Assembly: GCA_019637585.1 (NCBI GenBank)
Contig: JAHBVL010000003.1
Location: forward strand, 401,827 to 465,826
Source of the DNA: Thermomicrobiales bacterium
Lineage (GTDB): Bacteria; Chloroflexota; Chloroflexia; Thermomicrobiales; UBA6265
Reading direction: 5' to 3'
DNA: 64,000 nt
Part shown: one piece after another, positions 5,564-55,317 of the stretch
How the letters are laid out: each line of letters begins with the position of its first letter
Numbering within the stretch: the stretch's first letter is position 1
Made by a program: the position numbers and the translations under genes
Notes under the pieces: generated by a model
Database searches by the model: none
Seen by the model: the letters and a program-made list of their open reading frames with translations, nothing else
What the model was told of the DNA's origin: nothing

Positions 5564-6312
5564 TACGCCCTCTCCTGTCCCTTCCCCGTTGCCCAACAAG
5601 ACCCGGCCGACCCTGCGCAAGGCGGCCATGCCGGGCGCGCATCAGCGCAACGGCACCTATGAAGTCCCTTTGCATACTACGGCAGTTTCGGCGTTTACGT
5701 CAATAGTTTTGAGTTGTTCACGACGTGTACGGACGAGGCGGAGAGGCGAATGGGCGGAGAGGCGGAAAGGGAGACGGCGAGTCGTCTGGCCGTCTGGCCG
5801 TCTCGTGAGGCCCGCCCGGCCGTAAACGGGCCGGGCTCACAGTGCAATGGTCCTCCGGACCTACGATTTCGCCCCGGCAGGGGCTTCGCACTGTGAGCGA
5901 CGCCGTTCACGGCGTCGCGGTCGCGCGGGGAGATCCCTCACCTCGGACACGCTCCGACCGCGGACTATCCCTCACCCCCAACCCCTCTCCCGCACGGGAG
6001 AGGGGGGCTATTTCCTATTTCCCATTTCCCATTTCCCATAAACCCGGCCCAGCTCGGGATGACAGACAACATGAAGGGGGCGGGGGGAGTTCCCTCACCC
6101 CCGGCCCCTCTCCCGACCGCGGGAGAGGGGGGCTGGTTCCCATCCTCTCGCCTCGCCGGGTCACATGTGCCCGAACTACGGTCGTCGTTTCCTATCCGCC
6201 TTTTCGCCCTTCCGCCTCGCCGGGCCACACGTGCCCGAACTACGGTCGTCTCGTCGTTTCCTTTTCGCCTCTCCGCCTCTCCGCCTCTTCGCCTCTTCGC
6301 CTTTTCGCCTAT
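5564..6312. other. Repeat-dense intergenic block 2
   Basis: This 749-nt gap lies between paralogues 3 and 2. It carries G/A-rich GAGGCG runs (about 5735-5780, and on the opposite strand 6185-6310), one four-hairpin element (5815-5918), and two perfect hairpins with CCCCTCTCCCG/CGGGAGAGGGG arms (5982-6005 and 6105-6130). Two inverted copies of the short GTTCGGGCA quasi-palindrome lie at 6152-6176 and 6216-6240, and a TTTCCCA run lies near 6015-6040. No gene is supported. Confidence 0.8.
5815..5918 (+). repeat. Four-hairpin structured repeat, copy 3
   Basis: Hairpin 1 is at 5815-5835. The outer arms CTCACAGTGCAAT (5836-5848) and TTCGCACTGTGAG (5885-5897) carry a compensatory G-C to A-T change relative to copy 1. 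Hairpin 2 is GGTCCTCCGGACC (5849-5861), hairpin 3 is unchanged (5871-5884). Hairpin 4 gains an extra pair, GCGACGCCG/CGGCGTCGC (5897-5918). Paired changes imply that the fold is selected, or was until recently. Confidence 0.75.
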
Positions 6313-11583: not shown

Positions 11584-12370
11584 CAGACACCGGTCCTTAT
11601 TCCGCGCAACCTCGCTGCCGCGCGCGTGCCCATATCGACGATGGTTGATTCCCATCGCCAAAATTCGCTCTTATACCCCTGAGCTCCCAAGCCTGGCGGA
11701 TAGTACGGATCGGAGAGCGGCAACGTCAAGGCGGTTCAGGCGGCAAATCTATGGAATTCGCGCAACGCGCACGCCTTTTGCCTCAACAATTACCCCGGAG
11801 GGTATCTGCCCCTCTCGCCGGACACTCAGCCTGGGGTCGCCCACAAGCATAAGAACTGATGGCCAAATTGTATACAGTCCCGGCAAAGCATCTGCATCAT
11901 TGACTGATAGCGCCATGTTTACCGATGTCACCGGCGGATTCCCCATCTTCATTGCAAATCAGATCAACAACTGCGCACTTTCCGTCAGCAACTGAAAACT
12001 CACCCGCAGTCCATTCGGACCCTCGAACGGGTCTGTTCGGATATTTAACGGCACGTACGATGATCGTACGGGGGACGAAGGCGGAGAGGCGAATAGGCGG
12101 AGAGGCGGAAAGGAAGACGGGGAGACGGCAAGACCGGTAAACGTGGTTCGGGCACGTGTGGCCCGATGAGGCGAACAGGCGAGAGGCGGAGAGGCGGAAA
12201 GGAAGACGGGGAGACGGCAAGACGGGGAGACGGCAAGACCGGTAAACCTGGTTCGGGCACCTGTGGCCCGATGAGGCGGAGAGGCGAATAGGCGGAGAGG
12301 CGGACAGGAGTCGGCGAGTCGACACTCTCCCCTCTCCCGCAAGGGAGAGGGGCCGGGGGGTGAGGGATAT

Positions 12371-48196: not shown

Positions 48197-49762
48197 TCAG
48201 GCCGCACTCAGCAGTTGCTGGACGTCATCCGCGGTGATATCCCCCGATTGAAACCAGAGCGCCCATAGCGCATCCAGTTCCTCACCGGATGCCGACTCGA
48301 ACGCCCGCAGCAGCGCGTCAGGACTCCCGATGGAAAAGGCATACTCGGCCCCATATGCCCTGAGCGCTTCGAGGAATGCCGCATCGCCGATCTCCAGGCG
48401 AATGGCGTGCAACCCCAGACTCCCCTTGCCGTAAACCAGCCGGCCGAACGCCGTAGCACTCTCGATCTCCCCGACCGGCCGGTCGACCGGCATATCCGGC
48501 TGTTCGGCCAGAAAGGCGAGATAGGGCGCGGCCATCGTCGATTCGAGCAGCGAGTCAGCCGCATCCTCCCCGAAGAGCCGTTCGTAGACCAGTACGCTCG
48601 TGTAATTGGCCAGACTCTCGTTCATGAACGCGTGATCGTTCGAATTGACGCCGATCATGCCGCCCCACCATTGATGACCGATTTCATGGGTGAGGATGAA
48701 CGTCATCTGACTACCGGGCTGACCAGCCGTGGCGAGCTGTTGTTCGACGGCCGCTGCATCAATGAACAACACACCGGACCATGACACACCGAGCGCTCCC
48801 GCCAGCTCGGTTTGCACGATATCGAGCTCGTCATACGGGTAGGGTCCCAGCAGAGCGCCGATTTCCTCCATCGCCTCAGCGGCATATGCGAGAAACGCGC
48901 TCATATCTCCCGTAGCCGAAACATCGAGAGACAACCCGATCTCCACCCCGTTGGCCTCGATGATCTCCTGGACGAATCCATCATCGATCACCATCGTCAG
49001 TTCGCGCACCGGCCCGGTTTGGATGAGATAGCGGTCCTGCGTCTCTGTGCGAAGGTCGCGGGTTTCCTGACCAGTGCCGACCACCGACATCCCCCTGGGC
49101 ACTGTCACCCGGGCGGTGTACAGCGAGGATTCAGCGAACGTCGGGTCGCCCCAGATCGTCGGCGGCTCGAGTCCCCATCCCGAATCGACATCCCACCCGG
49201 CCAGGATGGGGTACCAGTCGGAGAGAATCCACGTTTGCCGTTCGATGTCGTAGCTGAAGATCCCGAAACTTCCCAATGAATTGACCGGCACCGTGGTGGA
49301 GAAATCGAGCGAGATCTCGACCTCCTCCTCCGGCTGCAGTGGATCGGCGAACTTCACAAACAGCACCGTGTCGTCCACAGCCAGATCGCTGTCGGCGGCC
49401 ATGCCGTCGACCGTCACCCCCGAAACCGTCAAGGCTCCTTCCAGGTAGTACGCGGCATTCGGATAGAGGCGGAACGGCGCCTCCGTCAACTGCTGCCCGG
49501 TGTGATTGGTAAACACAACCCGCATCGAACCGAAAATCGATCTGGTCGAGGGATCGAGCGTGACGTCGAGCTCATACCGGCTGATCGAATCGCCGGGAAC
49601 GACGCCGGATTCGGCCAGAAACGCATCCGACATCGGCCAGGCATCGTCCCATGTCGCTGCGTTGCCGCTGGGCTGTGCGCCGGCAAGGCCGCCAGCAATA
49701 CCCGCAACCAGCACCGTGAGGGCCAGGACCCAACGGGTGAGCTTTGGCGCCCACCTAGCCAA
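48197..49762 (-). CDS. Exported M1-family metallopeptidase (aminopeptidase N-like)
   Basis: This protein of about 521 aa has an N-terminal hydrophobic signal (LTRWVLALTVLVAGIAGGLAGAQP), an aminopeptidase-N-type N-domain (RYELDVTLDPSTRSIFGSMRVVF), and the zinc motif HEIGHQWWGG with the third ligand in FMNESLANYTS. The start is uncertain; TTG 49762 places the signal at the N-terminus and overlaps the LuxR gene by 8 nt. It hydrolyses peptides outside the membrane. The protein is shorter than full M1 enzymes and lacks the large C-terminal domain. Confidence 0.85.
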   Translation of the reverse strand: MARWAPKLTRWVLALTVLVAGIAGGLAGAQPSGNAATWDDAWPMSDAFLAESGVVPGDSISRYELDVTLDPSTRSIFGSMRVVFTNHTGQQLTEAPFRLYPNAAYYLEGALTVSGVTVDGMAADSDLAVDDTVLFVKFADPLQPEEEVEISLDFSTTVPVNSLGSFGIFSYDIERQTWILSDWYPILAGWDVDSGWGLEPPTIWGDPTFAESSLYTARVTVPRGMSVVGTGQETRDLRTETQDRYLIQTGPVRELTMVIDDGFVQEIIEANGVEIGLSLDVSATGDMSAFLAYAAEAMEEIGALLGPYPYDELDIVQTELAGALGVSWSGVLFIDAAAVEQQLATAGQPGSQMTFILTHEIGHQWWGGMIGVNSNDHAFMNESLANYTSVLVYERLFGEDAADSLLESTMAAPYLAFLAEQPDMPVDRPVGEIESATAFGRLVYGKGSLGLHAIRLEIGDAAFLEALRAYGAEYAFSIGSPDALLRAFESASGEELDALWALWFQSGDITADDVQQLLSAA

Positions 49763-52265
49763 TGGAATTCCGAATCGCCCATGCGGCCGCCGCAGACCGG
49801 GATTTGACGTCGAGCTTGTGCAGGATATTGGCCACATGCCTACTGGCCGTGCCAGTACTGATGAAGAGCTCATCGGCGATTTGCCGGTCGGTCATTCCCG
49901 CTACGATCAGTCCCAGAACCTCGAGTTCTCTGGTGGTCAGCCCGTGGAGATCGACACTCCCGACCGGGCCGGCGGACCGAACCAACGGCGCCGGTTTCGC
50001 TGTCGCATCGGCGATGACCGACAGACCGAACGCGAACAGCCCGGCTTCGGCCATGGACAGCTGCGATCCCTTTTTCCAGGCGGACGCGAATGCCGCATCA
50101 CCGAGCCCATCCTTCAGCCGCGCGATCACCTGCGACTCGAGCAAACGAACAGCATCCGGCACGCCAAGCGATATCCGGTGACGCAGCTGCTCGACCGCCC
50201 CCAGGAGCATCGCCGCGGCTTGTGGCTGCCCCGCTTTTTCCGCGGTATAGGCAAATCCGGAGAGCGATTCGGGAATACCGCCCATCTCATCCCGGTCGAC
50301 ACGCAGCTTCAGCGACTCGCGATCGAGACGGAGCGCTTCCTCCAGCTCTCCTTCCTGCCGCTTGACCGCAGCCAGCCCCGCCAGGGCGCTGGCCAGCTGA
50401 CCGGTATCCTCGGCCCGCTGCAATTGCGCGGCTTCTGCCCAATGCCGGCCGGCGGCGGCAAAGTCGCCCGTTCGCCAGGCCAGAAGCCCCAACCCGTTGA
50501 GCGCCCAGGCGGTGCCGTTCGAATCGGAATCGTCCTTGACCAGACCCAGCGCTTCCTCGAAAAGCGATCTGGCTCGCTCGTATTCACCGATCTGCACGTA
50601 GACCCAGGCCAGGTTGACGACCGAAACCTTCAGATCGGCACGTGTGCCAGCCGTGCGCCGCGCTGTCAGACCACGGGCATAGGCTTCCGCGGCCAGGTCG
50701 TACCGGCCGGTGTCGTAATAGACATTGCCCAGCGCATTTGCGCCAAACCCCACGCCCTCTTCATCGCCGCTCGCTTCCGCGATCTCCAGGCATTCAAGTG
50801 ACCTGCGGAGCGCCAGATCGTAGTTGCCGCGGGAAAAGGGCAATGTGGCTGCGCCGTAGAGTGCTCGCGCTCGCAGCTGTGGCGACACCTCTCCTCGTAA
50901 AGCGAGAATCCGGTCGCACCACATGTTGCCTTCGTTGAGCAACCCTCGCCAGTCCCAGTATCGCCATAGCCCGATGATCATCCGGTGACCCGTTTCGACA
51001 TCACCGGTTTCCACTGCCAGATTCAGCGCGGCCCGGAAATTCGGGTACTCCAGATCGAACTGGGCCAGGCGCTTTCGCCGGTCCAGACCGACCAGATCGA
51101 TGCTCCAACGCTGGCCAAGCGAGGCATACCACTGCAGAAACCGCCGCTGGACGATCGCTTCCTCGCCCGCTTCGCGCAGCTGCTCGTGACCGAATGCACG
51201 GATCGTCTCGAGAAGCTCATACTGCGGCTCGGTCGGATCGACCACGTCGGTGCGGGCCACAGCCAGACTCTTGGAGACCAGTGACGACAATCCCTCCAGC
51301 GTCTGCAGCGAACGCCAGGGATCGACGCTCTCGAATCCGTCCGATTCTTCTTTGCGTGGTTGAGCCACGGCCTCAGCATCGGTGAGCGTGAACTCCCCGC
51401 CAAAAATACTCAACGCCCGGAACAACGCCTGCTGCTCTTCGGTGAGCAGGCGGTAACTCCATTCAATCGTCGAACGCATCGTCTGCTGGCGAGGCGGCAG
51501 ATCGCGGGCCCCTCGCACCAGCACATCCAGCTGCCGGTCGAGATTGGCCAGAAGCCGCTGCGGGGGCAATACCTTCACCCAGGTGGCCGCCAGCTCGATA
51601 GCCAGCGGGATGCCCGCAAGCCGCCGGCAGATCTCCCGGATGCTCTCCACATTCTCCGGCGTCGCTTCGAATCCGTAGTTCGATTCGCTCGCTCTGGTGA
51701 CGAAGAGCTGCTCGGCCGCCGACAATCCATCGCTCTCCAGCGGCTCGGTGGCCAGCGGATGGACCGGGTAGGCGATCTCGCCCCGCACCATCAGCGGTTC
51801 CCGCGTCGTCGAAATCACTTTCAGCGCGGGAGATATCTGCAACAGATGCGCGATCTCCGGCGAAACCGCAATGACATGTTCCAGGTTGTCCAGAATGACC
51901 AGTGCTGGAAGGCTCCCCAGGCGTTCGGCGATCCTGATGACCGTCTCGTCGCCTTCCATATCCCGAACGCCGAGCTCGGACGCGATCTCCGGCAGCACCA
52001 GATCGATCGTATCCACGGTTGCCAGGGAAACGAACCAGATTCCGCCCGGAAAGAGACCAACGGAGCGATCGGCCACGGCCAGACTCAGACGGGTTTTGCC
52101 GACGCCACCCGGCCCGGTCAGGGTGATCAGCCGCGCAACCGGATCGCGCAGCATGGCAACGAGCGACTCGACCTCCGAATCACGGCCAATCAGCTCCGAC
52201 GGGTGTGGTGGAAGGCGTCCTGCGCTTTGGGACACCGTCGTGTGGGTCCCATTCTGAATGGACAT
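49755..52265 (-). CDS. LuxR-type regulator with NB-ARC-like ATPase and TPR-like region
   Basis: The 836-aa protein has a Walker A, LTGPGGVGKTRLSLAVADR, at about residue 50, Walker B LVILDNLEHV, an AAA/NB-ARC-type region with ICRRLAGIPLAIELAATWVKVLPPQRLL, a long helical-repeat middle (TPR-like), and a C-terminal LuxR helix-turn-helix, LTTRELEVLGLIVAGMTDRQIADELFISTGTASRHVANILHKL. Such multidomain STAND-type regulators switch on transcription after ligand-driven ATP binding. The gene overlaps the M1 peptidase gene, so both form one transcript. Its upstream region is the tandem repeat array. Confidence 0.9.
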   Translation of the reverse strand: MSIQNGTHTTVSQSAGRLPPHPSELIGRDSEVESLVAMLRDPVARLITLTGPGGVGKTRLSLAVADRSVGLFPGGIWFVSLATVDTIDLVLPEIASELGVRDMEGDETVIRIAERLGSLPALVILDNLEHVIAVSPEIAHLLQISPALKVISTTREPLMVRGEIAYPVHPLATEPLESDGLSAAEQLFVTRASESNYGFEATPENVESIREICRRLAGIPLAIELAATWVKVLPPQRLLANLDRQLDVLVRGARDLPPRQQTMRSTIEWSYRLLTEEQQALFRALSIFGGEFTLTDAEAVAQPRKEESDGFESVDPWRSLQTLEGLSSLVSKSLAVARTDVVDPTEPQYELLETIRAFGHEQLREAGEEAIVQRRFLQWYASLGQRWSIDLVGLDRRKRLAQFDLEYPNFRAALNLAVETGDVETGHRMIIGLWRYWDWRGLLNEGNMWCDRILALRGEVSPQLRARALYGAATLPFSRGNYDLALRRSLECLEIAEASGDEEGVGFGANALGNVYYDTGRYDLAAEAYARGLTARRTAGTRADLKVSVVNLAWVYVQIGEYERARSLFEEALGLVKDDSDSNGTAWALNGLGLLAWRTGDFAAAGRHWAEAAQLQRAEDTGQLASALAGLAAVKRQEGELEEALRLDRESLKLRVDRDEMGGIPESLSGFAYTAEKAGQPQAAAMLLGAVEQLRHRISLGVPDAVRLLESQVIARLKDGLGDAAFASAWKKGSQLSMAEAGLFAFGLSVIADATAKPAPLVRSAGPVGSVDLHGLTTRELEVLGLIVAGMTDRQIADELFISTGTASRHVANILHKLDVKSRSAAAAWAIRNSIG

Positions 52266-52409
52266 GAAAACCGCGACCTGTTCTAATCGGCGGGCCTCAT
52301 CCGGGCCTCCGGTATCGCTTGGAATCTTAGTCCCTGCCCCGCGAATTGCACATACCCGACGTCATCTTTGCGGAATCCGCCAGTTCCAATACCAGCTCCC
52401 CTCAACCAC

Positions 52410-52750
52410 CCGGTAGCTGCAGACCCCCGTGTCTGCGATTGCCATGGGAAACAATGTCATGCTTCGCCCGCCAGCCAATCACGCTGTAGTCGCAGACCCC
52501 CGTGTCTGCTTTCCCATGGGAAACAATGGCATGCTTCGCCCGCCTGCCAATCACCCTGTAGTCGCAGACCCCCGTGTCTGCTTTCCCATGGGAAACCATG
52601 ACATTCGTCGCTCACCTGCCAATTGCCTAGTAGCTGCAGACCCCCGTGTCTGCTTTCCCATGGGAAACAATGTCATGCTTCGCCCGCCTGCCAATCACCC
52701 TGTAGTCGCAGACCCCCGTGTCTGCTTTCTTATGGGAAACGATGTCATGC
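52410..52750. repeat. 72-bp tandem repeat array with palindromic cores
   Basis: Five direct copies begin at 52419, 52492, 52564, 52636 and 52708, so the period is 72-73 bp. Each carries the hairpin GCAGACCCCCGTGTCTGC and most carry the perfect palindrome TTTCCCATGGGAAA, then a less conserved CATGCTTCGCCCGCC tract. Two inverted core copies follow at 52777-52802 and 52846-52876. There are no variable spacers, which argues against CRISPR. The array occupies the LuxR gene's upstream region. Confidence 0.85.
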
Positions 52751-52926
52751 GCTTGTCCACGCTTCCCACAGAAGGGCAGACACGGGGGTCTGCGACTACA
52801 AGGGGAGCACGGTGCCGGTGAAGGACTCACGCCATTCCGGGAGAGCGCAGAAACGGGGGTCTGCAGCTACCAGGTGATGAGAGGTGGGTCAGCCAGGAAT
52901 TTCTCCGCTGTGAGTAGAGACAACGA

Positions 52927-52949
52927 ACCCCGGTCGCAATGACCGGGGT
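52927..52949 (-). terminator. Putative terminator of MMPL gene
   Basis: A perfect 9-bp hairpin, ACCCCGGTC/GACCGGGGT, has a 5-nt loop and lies about 30 nt beyond the MMPL stop. The T-rich run is weak (TTCGTTGTCT), so it may be a partial terminator. Confidence 0.6.
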
Positions 52950-52977
52950 CCGTTGGGGGAAGGGAGGGAGGAAGTGA

Positions 52978-55221
52978 TCAGTCGGAACCGGCGACAGCCG
53001 GGCCAAGCTCTTCGGGCAGCGGGTTCGTCGAACCTTCGATGTTGACGTGGGGAACGATCTTGTCCAGCCAGGCGGGGAACCACCAGTTGCGATGACCCAG
53101 CAGCTCCATCGTGGATGGCACCAGAATCATCCGCACGATTGTCGCGTCGACAAGGATCGCCACCGCCAACCCAAGACCAAACTGCTTGATGATCGGGTCG
53201 GGCGTCGCCACAAAGGCCAGGAAGACGCTGATCATGATCGCGGCGGCGGCGGTGATGACTTTGGCAGTCACGGCGAGACCGTTCGCCACGGCGTCGCTGG
53301 TCGTATCGCCATGCGCCCAGTACTCCCGAATCCGGCTCAGCAGAAAGACCTCATAGTCCATCGACAACCCGAAGAGAATGGCGAAAAGGAACATCGGCAT
53401 GAACACCGCGATCGGCTGCGACTCCTCCAGCCCGATCAGCTGTCCTCCCCAGCCCCACTGAAAGACCGCCACGATCACGCCGAATGCCGCCGCGATCGAC
53501 AGCAGGTTCATGATCGACGCTTTCAGCGCAATGACTGGCGAACGGAAGACAACCGTCAGCAGGAGGAAGCTCAACCCGATGATCACAATGAAGACGTAGG
53601 GGGTTCTGCTCACCAGGTGATCGGAAAAGTCGAGGAAGCTGCCGGTAGGACCACCGACAAAGGCGCGCGTCCCCGAACCTTCCAGCGTCTGCGGGATCGT
53701 CACATTTCGCAGGTCGGAGACGAGGTCTTGCGTGCTGCTGTCGTTCGAACCACCCTCCGGCACGACATTGATGACAGCGGTGTCGCCCGCTTCGTTCAGG
53801 AACGCCTGATCGACTTGGACGATGCTCGGCGTTTCGGCCAGCGCCGCGGTCATGGACTCCAGCGTAGCCGGGCTGATCCCGTTCTCATCTTCGAGGACGA
53901 TCAGCAGCGGATTGCTGAATCCAGGTCCAAACCCTTCAGTAAGCAGATCGAAGGCTCGCCGGGAGTGGTAGCTGGTCGGGTTTGCTCCGGCATCCGGGAA
54001 TCCCAGCTCGACGTCAGCCAGGGGCACCGCCAGAATCAGCAGAGAAGCTGCGGAGATGATGGCGAACGGCCAGGGAGTCTCCTGGATGCGGCGGGCCAGG
54101 CGCCGTCCGAACGGAATGTGCTGGTGCGCGGATGCGGCATCGGACTGCCGGCGGCTGATGCTCCATTTGTCGATGCGCCTGCCAAGCAGTGCCAGAATCG
54201 ACGGCAACACCACCAGCGCCACCGCTACCGCCGCGGCAACCACGATCGCCGCTGCTACACCGATGGCGGTGATGAAGGGCACGCCAACCGCTGAAAGTCC
54301 CAGGAGCGAGATGACCACCACGCCCCCGGCAAAGATCACAGCCCGGCCAGCGGTGTCCACCGCCTGTACGACAGCCCGCTGCGGGGACAATCCGTCCGCC
54401 AGCCCTTCGCGATAGCGGGTGACGACGAATAGCGCATAGTCGATTCCCACGCCGATACCGATCATCGAGGCGAACGCGGGGGCAAAGGTGGCGACATCCA
54501 TGACGCTGGCGACGATGCCAATGCCCATGAATCCGACAAAGAGACCAAGCAGCGCGGTCAGGATGGGCAAACCCATCGCCACGACCGAGCCGAACGCGAG
54601 CAGCAGGATGATCGCTGCAGCGGTGATTCCCACCAGCTCGGCGGTGTAGCTGATCGAGAACTCGGACTGGGCAACGATGTCGCCCCCTGCCTCGACCTGC
54701 AGTGCCTCCGAACCAGACCGGTCGACCAGATCGATGAACTGGTTGATGTCCGCCAGGGGAATCTCGGCGGCCAGCGCGTCGAACGCCACAGTGGCATAGG
54801 CGGTTCGGCCATCGGCGCTGATCTGCTGTTCAGCATCGAATGGCGACACGATGTGCGACACATGCGGCAGTGTCGATGCTTCCGCCAGAATCGCCTCGAT
54901 TGCGGTTTGCGAATCGGGAGCCCCGATACCTGCTGGAACTTCGGTCCGGAAGACCATTGTGGCCGAGCTGCCGGCTTGCTGGGGGAAGCGCTCCTCCAGG
55001 AGATCGTAGGCCTGCTGCGACTCGGCGCCAGGCAACGCGAATGAGTCCGCATACTCGCCAGCCAGCGGAACGGCAATCGCGGCGAAGACCACCATCGCCA
55101 GGATCGCTGCGCCGAGCACCCTCTTCGGGTGGACGGTGATGTATGAAGCCCACCTGGCCAGGTAGCCGGTCGGTTCGCTGCGTTGCGTCCCGGCTGCCGC
55201 CGGGGCCGATGAACCAGCCAT
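52978..55221 (-). CDS. MMPL/RND-family membrane exporter
   Basis: The 747-aa protein has two repeated MMPL units, each of a large extracytoplasmic loop and a bundle of about five to six membrane helices (GIGVGIDYALFVVTRYREGLADG in the first, FGLSMDYEVFLLSRIREYWAHG in the second, with the Asp-Tyr motif of proton-driven RND transport). ATG 55221 is used because the preceding 25 codons look non-coding. MMPL proteins export lipids, glycolipids or drugs. The divergent TetR gene is its likely repressor. Confidence 0.9.
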   Translation of the reverse strand: MAGSSAPAAAGTQRSEPTGYLARWASYITVHPKRVLGAAILAMVVFAAIAVPLAGEYADSFALPGAESQQAYDLLEERFPQQAGSSATMVFRTEVPAGIGAPDSQTAIEAILAEASTLPHVSHIVSPFDAEQQISADGRTAYATVAFDALAAEIPLADINQFIDLVDRSGSEALQVEAGGDIVAQSEFSISYTAELVGITAAAIILLLAFGSVVAMGLPILTALLGLFVGFMGIGIVASVMDVATFAPAFASMIGIGVGIDYALFVVTRYREGLADGLSPQRAVVQAVDTAGRAVIFAGGVVVISLLGLSAVGVPFITAIGVAAAIVVAAAVAVALVVLPSILALLGRRIDKWSISRRQSDAASAHQHIPFGRRLARRIQETPWPFAIISAASLLILAVPLADVELGFPDAGANPTSYHSRRAFDLLTEGFGPGFSNPLLIVLEDENGISPATLESMTAALAETPSIVQVDQAFLNEAGDTAVINVVPEGGSNDSSTQDLVSDLRNVTIPQTLEGSGTRAFVGGPTGSFLDFSDHLVSRTPYVFIVIIGLSFLLLTVVFRSPVIALKASIMNLLSIAAAFGVIVAVFQWGWGGQLIGLEESQPIAVFMPMFLFAILFGLSMDYEVFLLSRIREYWAHGDTTSDAVANGLAVTAKVITAAAAIMISVFLAFVATPDPIIKQFGLGLAVAILVDATIVRMILVPSTMELLGHRNWWFPAWLDKIVPHVNIEGSTNPLPEELGPAVAGSD

Positions 55222-55287
55222 GAAGAGAATCCCCCTGAAGAGAACCAGCTGTCGCTGATCGCCAGCCGGACAAGAAAGCGACCGGTC

Positions 55288-55317
55288 ACTTACCAACCGG
55301 TCAGTAGGCGGTATACT
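55288..55317. promoter_or_regulatory. TetR operator overlapping a sigma-70-like promoter
   Basis: ACTTACCAACCGGTCAGT (55288-55305) is a near-perfect dyad (ACTTACC against ACTGACC) of the type bound by AcrR/TetR regulators. It covers the -35-like TTACCA (55290-55295), and a TATACT -10 (55312-55317) sits 16 nt further downstream. It lies between the divergent MMPL and TetR genes, so binding could shut off both. Confidence 0.65.

Follow-up and report, generated by a model that had tools for sequence, protein, structure and literature searches.

The locus examined here raises a simple question: what is a regular array of palindromes doing between a STAND/LuxR-type regulator gene and an MMPL-family transporter gene? 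The window (the whole 64-kb stretch of DNA that was analysed) carries GCAGACCCCCGTGTCTGC seven times within positions 52419-52864, five times in direct and twice in inverted orientation. The preliminary description of this DNA proposed that the array might be a multi-site operator of the LuxR gene or else a mobile repeat cluster. Our results favor the latter. The array is very probably a cluster of GTAG-type REPs, in which the left half of a REPIN has become repeated in tandem, with a unit of 72 bp, and to which one inverted REP has been added. The features on which this reading is built are as follows.

49755-52265, minus strand: STAND/LuxR-type regulator gene, outside the element; its start codon is 147 bp away
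52413-52436, plus strand: REP copy 1, GTAG-CT-GCAGAC-CCCCGT-GTCTGC
52437-52491, plus strand: inter-core stretch 1, 55 nt, ending in the next GTAGNN and containing a degenerate TTTCCCATGGGAAA
52486-52509, plus strand: REP copy 2, GTAG-TC-core, then exact TTTCCCATGGGAAA
52510-52563, plus strand: inter-core stretch 2, 54 nt; shares 98% identity with stretch 4
52558-52581, plus strand: REP copy 3, GTAG-TC-core, then exact TTTCCCATGGGAAA
52582-52635, plus strand: inter-core stretch 3, 54 nt; identity with each remaining stretch 69-78%
52630-52653, plus strand: REP copy 4, GTAG-CT-core, then exact TTTCCCATGGGAAA
52654-52707, plus strand: inter-core stretch 4, 54 nt; shares 98% identity with stretch 2
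52702-52725, plus strand: REP copy 5, GTAG-TC-core; the terminal REPIN's left half
52702-52799: terminal REPIN, two REPs head-to-head with GTAG outside; sibling in the same genome at C23:523532-523630
52776-52799, minus strand: inverted REP copy 6, GTAG-TC-core; the terminal REPIN's right half
52847-52870, minus strand: REP copy 7, inverted, GTAG-CT-core; one mismatch in the core
52978-55296, minus strand: MMPL-family transporter gene, outside the element; its stop codon is about 107 bp away

The regularity of the array is not in doubt. Plus-strand cores start at 52419, 52492, 52564, 52636 and 52708, all of them exact, and the minus-strand cores lie at 52776 (exact) and 52847 (one mismatch), so that the start-to-start spacings of the seven are 73, 72, 72, 72, 68 and 71. 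Tandem Repeats Finder reports a period of 72 with 4.8 copies, 86% matches and a score of 519. Dinucleotide-shuffled windows held 0.18 core copies on average and none of 100 reached seven. The preliminary description, which counted five direct and two inverted cores in a 72-bp array and judged period and palindromes too regular for random sequence, is therefore confirmed on both points. It also placed TTTCCCATGGGAAA in most direct copies, and we find it exact after three of the five direct units and with two mismatches after the other two. Two details required adjustment. The array, earlier bounded at 52410-52876, is real, and its outer limits, taken at the GTAG feet, are 52413 and 52870. Moreover, the statement that spacers are absent holds insofar as the 72-bp units abut, but each unit consists of a 24-nt REP and a spacer of about 48 nt, the palindrome being part of the unit only.

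The anatomy of the single copies is that of a hairpin on a foot. The core has a 6-bp stem, GCAGAC/GTCTGC, and the loop CCCCGT, and GTAG followed by two unpaired bases stands before it; the GTAG foot is exact in all seven copies of the window. As single-stranded DNA the hairpin of copy 1 folds with a z-score of -3.5, and the terminal REPIN, likewise computed as DNA, forms a single long hairpin over its 98 nt, at -39.5 kcal/mol and z -10.0. An inverted doublet with GTAG outside that folds as one hairpin is the defining arrangement of a REPIN.

The core is also spread through the rest of the genome. The preliminary description had proposed a genome search for core copies, and in the 3.94-Mb assembly (33 contigs, 96.6% complete) this search returned 96 matches with at most two mismatches, 51 on the plus and 45 on the minus strand, 76 of them exact, as compared with one match for the reversed control pattern. 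A re-scan at up to three mismatches, which covered the DNA fetched around these matches, gave 99; three matches lacking GTAG and lying inside one predicted gene (two on one palindrome at C12:149127, one at C12:150300) were dropped, leaving 96 copies at 47 sites. GTAG stands six bases 5' of the core in 91 of the 96 copies, the others having GCAG (two), GGAG (one), GTAC (one) or a foot cut off by the contig end (one), and 82 of the 91 GTAG copies have a pair of pyrimidines between GTAG and core. Judged by an in-house codon-usage gene caller trained on the window, all 47 sites lie outside predicted genes, any overlap being 15 bp or less. Convergent gaps account for 19 sites, unidirectional gaps for 20, divergent gaps for three and contig edges for five; convergent sites thus make up 19 of the 22 that are either convergent or divergent (P = 0.0004). 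Among adjacent copies less than 200 bp apart, 31 arrangements are head-to-head with GTAG outside, 17 head-to-tail and one tail-to-tail, a count that took 95 copies since the GGAG copy failed the filter. A hairpin with a GTAG foot, high-copy extragenic dispersal and a bias towards convergent and unidirectional gaps are what characterizes GTAG-type REPs. The family is narrowly distributed among relatives: GTAG plus core, at no more than one mismatch, occurs in three of 149 other genomes with one match each, or in four of 150 when the genome itself is counted.

Both the REPIN and the tandem unit have counterparts elsewhere in the genome. The sibling of the terminal REPIN (C23:523532-523630) lies 69 kb away, and the two are 88% identical in their interiors and 55% identical in their flanks. 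The latter figure equals the mean flank identity over all REPIN pairs (29 of the 31 REPINs, those with 100-nt flanks). In the 66 comparisons with an interior identity of at least 70% the mean flank identity was 66%, which is raised by a terminal-inverted-repeat (TIR) element that conserves the flanks of a class of pairs about 135 bp long, discussed below. The four inter-core stretches of the window are 69-98% identical to one another, and 63-85% identical to stretches at C23:265654, C29:1351, C33:104, C33:174, C33:53597 and C33:53670; a shuffled control gave a mean of 39% and a maximum of 57% in 119 comparisons. No convincing homology to the window unit is seen at C1:428692/428805 (35-42%) or at C12:63328-63441 (24-58%), and the inter-core stretch at C23:265507 is of double length. 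Since homologous stretches occur in several but not all of the other arrays, the 72-bp unit is neither private to this locus nor universal. Taken together, the hairpins with GTAG feet, the dispersal between predicted genes, the head-to-head pairing, the REPIN sibling and the 72-bp units elsewhere form the observed basis of our interpretation, and the suggestion of a mobile repeat cluster in the preliminary description is supported by 47 genome-wide sites, by REP anatomy, by head-to-head pairs and by a dispersed sibling.

The likeness to published systems points in the same direction. Published work on GTAG REPs (PMC3733652) describes stems of 6-13 bp, unpaired dinucleotides after GTAG in two families, head-to-head, tail-to-tail and head-to-tail dimers, clusters of tandem units that include flanking DNA, a location in convergent and unidirectional gaps, and the occurrence of GTAG repeats in Chloroflexi. 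The window family shares the GTAG foot, two unpaired nucleotides, a 6-bp stem, a short loop, the intergenic position in convergent or unidirectional gaps, head-to-head dimers and tandem clusters with flanking DNA. For TnpA-REP subclass 2.5, PMC6006769 gives GTAG 1-2 nt from a short stem and a foot plus stem of 10-13 nt; with foot, spacing and stem of 4+2+6 = 12 the window family falls within this range. Compared by description with both, it differs in its GCAGAC-CCCCGT-GTCTGC core, its inter-core stretches of about 54 nt and the fact that we found no REPtron. REPINs were defined, and evenly spaced tandem REP arrays reported, in PMC3116915; in that work Pseudomonas fluorescens SBW25 likewise has inverted REP doublets that form one long hairpin and evenly spaced arrays in one orientation. 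The same work places a cluster of each REPIN group beside a RAYT, whereas no RAYT was found beside the window family. A text search of the literature with the letter string of the core gave no match.

Could the array instead serve the gene beside it? The preliminary description was correct in calling the neighbor a STAND-type LuxR protein (NB-ARC, TPR and GerE domains were found), and an operator bound by this regulator, in autoregulation, or by some other factor controlling the LuxR gene would gain from the position of the array 147 bp upstream of the start codon, a possible place for a promoter, and from repeated palindromes that suit a dimeric HTH protein. It is nonetheless highly improbable. 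The 47 sites are biased towards gene ends (19 convergent against 3 divergent), and a LuxR homologue was detected by tblastn (E <= 1e-3) in two of 46 loci around other copies, a set in which a few loci overlap and one contains only dropped matches. Upstream of the best homologue in each of 14 related genomes (about 500 bp, core at up to four mismatches) the core was present in none of 14 cases, the homologues being 34-42% identical and maybe not orthologues; one of these 14 loci (L294) has a single core match elsewhere in the locus. The preliminary description had itself named copies occurring widely at unrelated sites, combined with a lack of binding by the LuxR protein, as telling against its operator reading, and as regards the sequence half of this the 47 sites present that situation. 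The genome-wide distribution and the counts of 2/46 and 0/14 do not fit an operator with sites confined to or enriched at regulator genes, and the broader suggestion of a multi-site operator is unsupported. A scan of 52200-53000 for sigma-70-like promoters found none, with 0.3 expected in shuffles, and is uninformative either way. The LuxR/STAND protein belongs to a large paralogous family, with at least 16 matches in its own genome at E <= 1e-50, itself included (16 of 50 candidates were scored).

A different kind of function is conceivable after mobility, in that a cluster of mobile REPs might now act on the transcribed strand between the MMPL and LuxR genes as an RNA element, be it an attenuator, a terminator or a 3' stabilizer. 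We regard this as rather unlikely. The gap is unidirectional, between two minus-strand genes, such roles have been hypothesized for REPs elsewhere (PMC3733652), and on the gene strand the 470 nt of the array fold as RNA at -262.5 kcal/mol (z -10.5). However, strong folding is an automatic consequence of inverted REPs, and 52200-53000 contains a single terminator-like match, which falls on the opposite strand and is no more than chance would give (one against 0.7 expected). To a CRISPR-like array, a coding repeat or an assembly artefact we give almost no credence. The regular period is what speaks for them, and, being a multiple of three, it creates an open frame of 130 amino acids at 52429-52821; but a Pfam search with this frame gave nothing at E <= 0.001, and the coding repeat was rejected on that ground. 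The inter-core stretches resemble one another and those of other arrays, unlike unique spacers, and homologous units on other contigs speak against an artefact. A CRISPR array was accordingly rejected, as was a satellite private to the locus, the inter-core stretches being common to several arrays.

Under the REP cluster interpretation, each REPIN would be a non-autonomous mobile element. A RAYT, that is a Y1/HUH transposase related to IS200/IS605, would recognize GTAG and the hairpin in single-stranded DNA and act in trans, and the tandem amplification could have arisen by slippage, unequal recombination or repeated processing by the RAYT. Any effect on the neighboring genes would be of the generic kind proposed for REPs, exerted by a hairpin that forms where read-through RNA spans the gap from MMPL to LuxR, and would not be that of an operator specific to LuxR.

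We searched the genome for candidate RAYTs with PF01797, protein R2, alignment A1 and NF047646, the NCBIfam model of REP-associated tyrosine transposases (cut-off 80 bits). Five RAYT-like genes were found. Two of them, R7 and R8, are of the MPNHxH type and fall below that cut-off; they were missed by PF01797 and came to light through alignment A1, which includes both, after a weak first match. All five have GTAG-type hairpins beside them.

R1, C1:426904, above the cut-off: GCGATC-CCTTGT-GGTCGC; 22 genome matches
R2, C1:625044, above the cut-off: CCCGGC-CCTGT-GCCGGG; one copy found by script and the others by eye, a local observation
R3, C30:28708, above the cut-off: TCGGGC-ACCTGTG-GCCCGA; 82 genome matches at up to three mismatches
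R7, C1:547276, 58.5 bits: GTAGGGGCGCACGGCGTGCGCC; found by eye, a local observation
R8, C23:330757, 38.5 bits: GTAGCGGCGAGGCCTGCCTCGCC; found by eye, a local observation

The window family adjoins none of the five, each of which sits beside another GTAG hairpin type. Its copies nearest to a RAYT are three in head-to-tail order at C1:428692-428935, about 1.4 kb from R1, from which a predicted gene separates them. A flank scan of the three further Y1 genes (R4-R6) gave no recurrent GTAG hairpin, and R4, the one of these three that was scanned against NCBIfam, passes the IS200 cut-off. Because none of the five RAYT-like genes adjoins the window family, we can only infer a RAYT as its mobilizer. 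The cognate gene may have escaped an assembly that is 96.6% complete and in 33 contigs, may have been lost, or may be one of the five. In a genome of the same family (locus L262), a RAYT has GTAGC-GCAGGC-ACCYGTG-GCCTGC on either side, a sequence similar to the window core, and the RAYT protein is 51% identical to R2, 45% to R3 and 44% to R1. Hairpins near the RAYTs of relatives (29 loci) were listed only if they had a C-pyrimidine-GT loop or a recurring core; similarity of loops is biased by this choice and was left unused.

The window also holds REPs of the R3 family, at 1848-1871, 2102-2125, 12143-12166 and 12248-12271 on the plus strand and at 6156-6179 and 6220-6243 on the minus strand. 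Copies of this family fall in tandem repeats at 6144-6287 and 12114-12309.

A good part of the window's family lies within a larger structure. In the class of pairs of about 135 bp (spacing 130-141), 12 pairs align beyond their GTAG ends into termini matching CTAGCCCGGATTATTCA; a thirteenth pair, at C6:52, was excluded as its flanks are missing. At up to three mismatches, at least nine of the 12 have one or more such termini, and four have both, measuring 264-266 bp end to end. These four TIR elements, each with the window family inside, are:

C12:609381-609646
C14:12366-12631
C28:89032-89297
C29:153306-153569

The terminus has 43 matches in the genome, compared with two for the control. At L274 (C1:33595-33890), where both termini are visible, and at L276 (C12:603554), where the right end has four mismatches, the interior carries the R1 family instead, so that two REP families occupy one MITE-like backbone of about 265-300 bp. 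No autonomous copy of this element was identified in the stretches fetched. The counts of nine and four come from a terminus search in the class of about 135 bp, shorter pair classes having been covered by pairwise flank comparison only. It could be hypothesized that the family spreads mainly as a passenger of the MITE-like element with CTAGCCCGGATTATTCA ends and not by a RAYT. The termini at nine and four of the 12 pairs, and the second REP family in the same backbone, are in favor of this; but the terminus is found nowhere in the 64-kb window, so that the array itself would be left unexplained by the TIR element, and the GTAG foot and head-to-head pairing are published marks of RAYT-linked REPINs. 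We therefore consider the passenger hypothesis distinctly unlikely. A related thought, to which we assign a low probability, is that the 96-copy family may lack a cognate RAYT and have spread by riding a TIR-type MITE, arrays such as that in the window then being REPINs that escaped from this vehicle or never needed it. REP dimers inside longer palindromes have already been described (PMC3733652).

A look-alike of the window family is widespread. The exact pattern GTAGNNGCAGACCCCCGTGTCTGC has at least 93 copies in at least 80 loci of many phyla. The matches listed (L099-L178) include unaltered copies of GTAGGGGCAGACCCCCGTGTCTGCCC in named genomes of Prevotella, Armatimonadetes, Anaerolineae, Polyangiaceae, Aminicenantes and further groups. 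This repeat and the window family have the identical 18-nt core and GTAG at the same distance. They differ in what surrounds the core: among the matches listed, the widespread repeat has GG before it in 91 of 93 copies and CC after it in 91 of 93, giving an 8-bp stem at GTAG, whereas in the genome of the window a pyrimidine pair precedes the core in the 82 of 91 GTAG copies mentioned above, CC follows it in five of 96, and GG and CC together occur in none. When R1-R6 served as queries, two of the 80 listed GTAGGGGCAGACCCCCGTGTCTGCCC loci yielded a RAYT homologue, both of the MPNHIHG type; as that search did without MPNHxH-type queries, more RAYTs may exist there. A Y1_Tnp match was obtained in 34 of 39 genomes with the widespread repeat (among the matches listed), as against five of 14 control genomes. 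In one of the loci, L125 (5400-6300, minus strand), several REP-like repeats lie in frame within the RAYT gene of a Thermodesulfobacteriota MAG (VGADPRVCP..., after MPNHIHG), and the reading frame stays intact. In-frame repeats inside a transposase have been reported for subclass 2.4 in PMC6006769.

In conclusion, the array is most likely an ordinary genomic parasite and not a switch of the adjoining gene, and on present evidence its position beside the LuxR gene is incidental. This does away with a regulatory interpretation of the LuxR locus that is tempting but lacks support, and the locus illustrates how regular palindromic arrays originate from REPINs. If the family does ride a TIR-type MITE, the genome would harbor a mobile system of two layers, with REPINs as one and a conventional inverted-repeat transposon as the other. 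The genome is a useful case insofar as it contains five RAYT-like genes with GTAG hairpins of their own together with a widely dispersed REP family that is without one. It thus lets one test whether REP families persist or spread without their transposase, or by riding another element.
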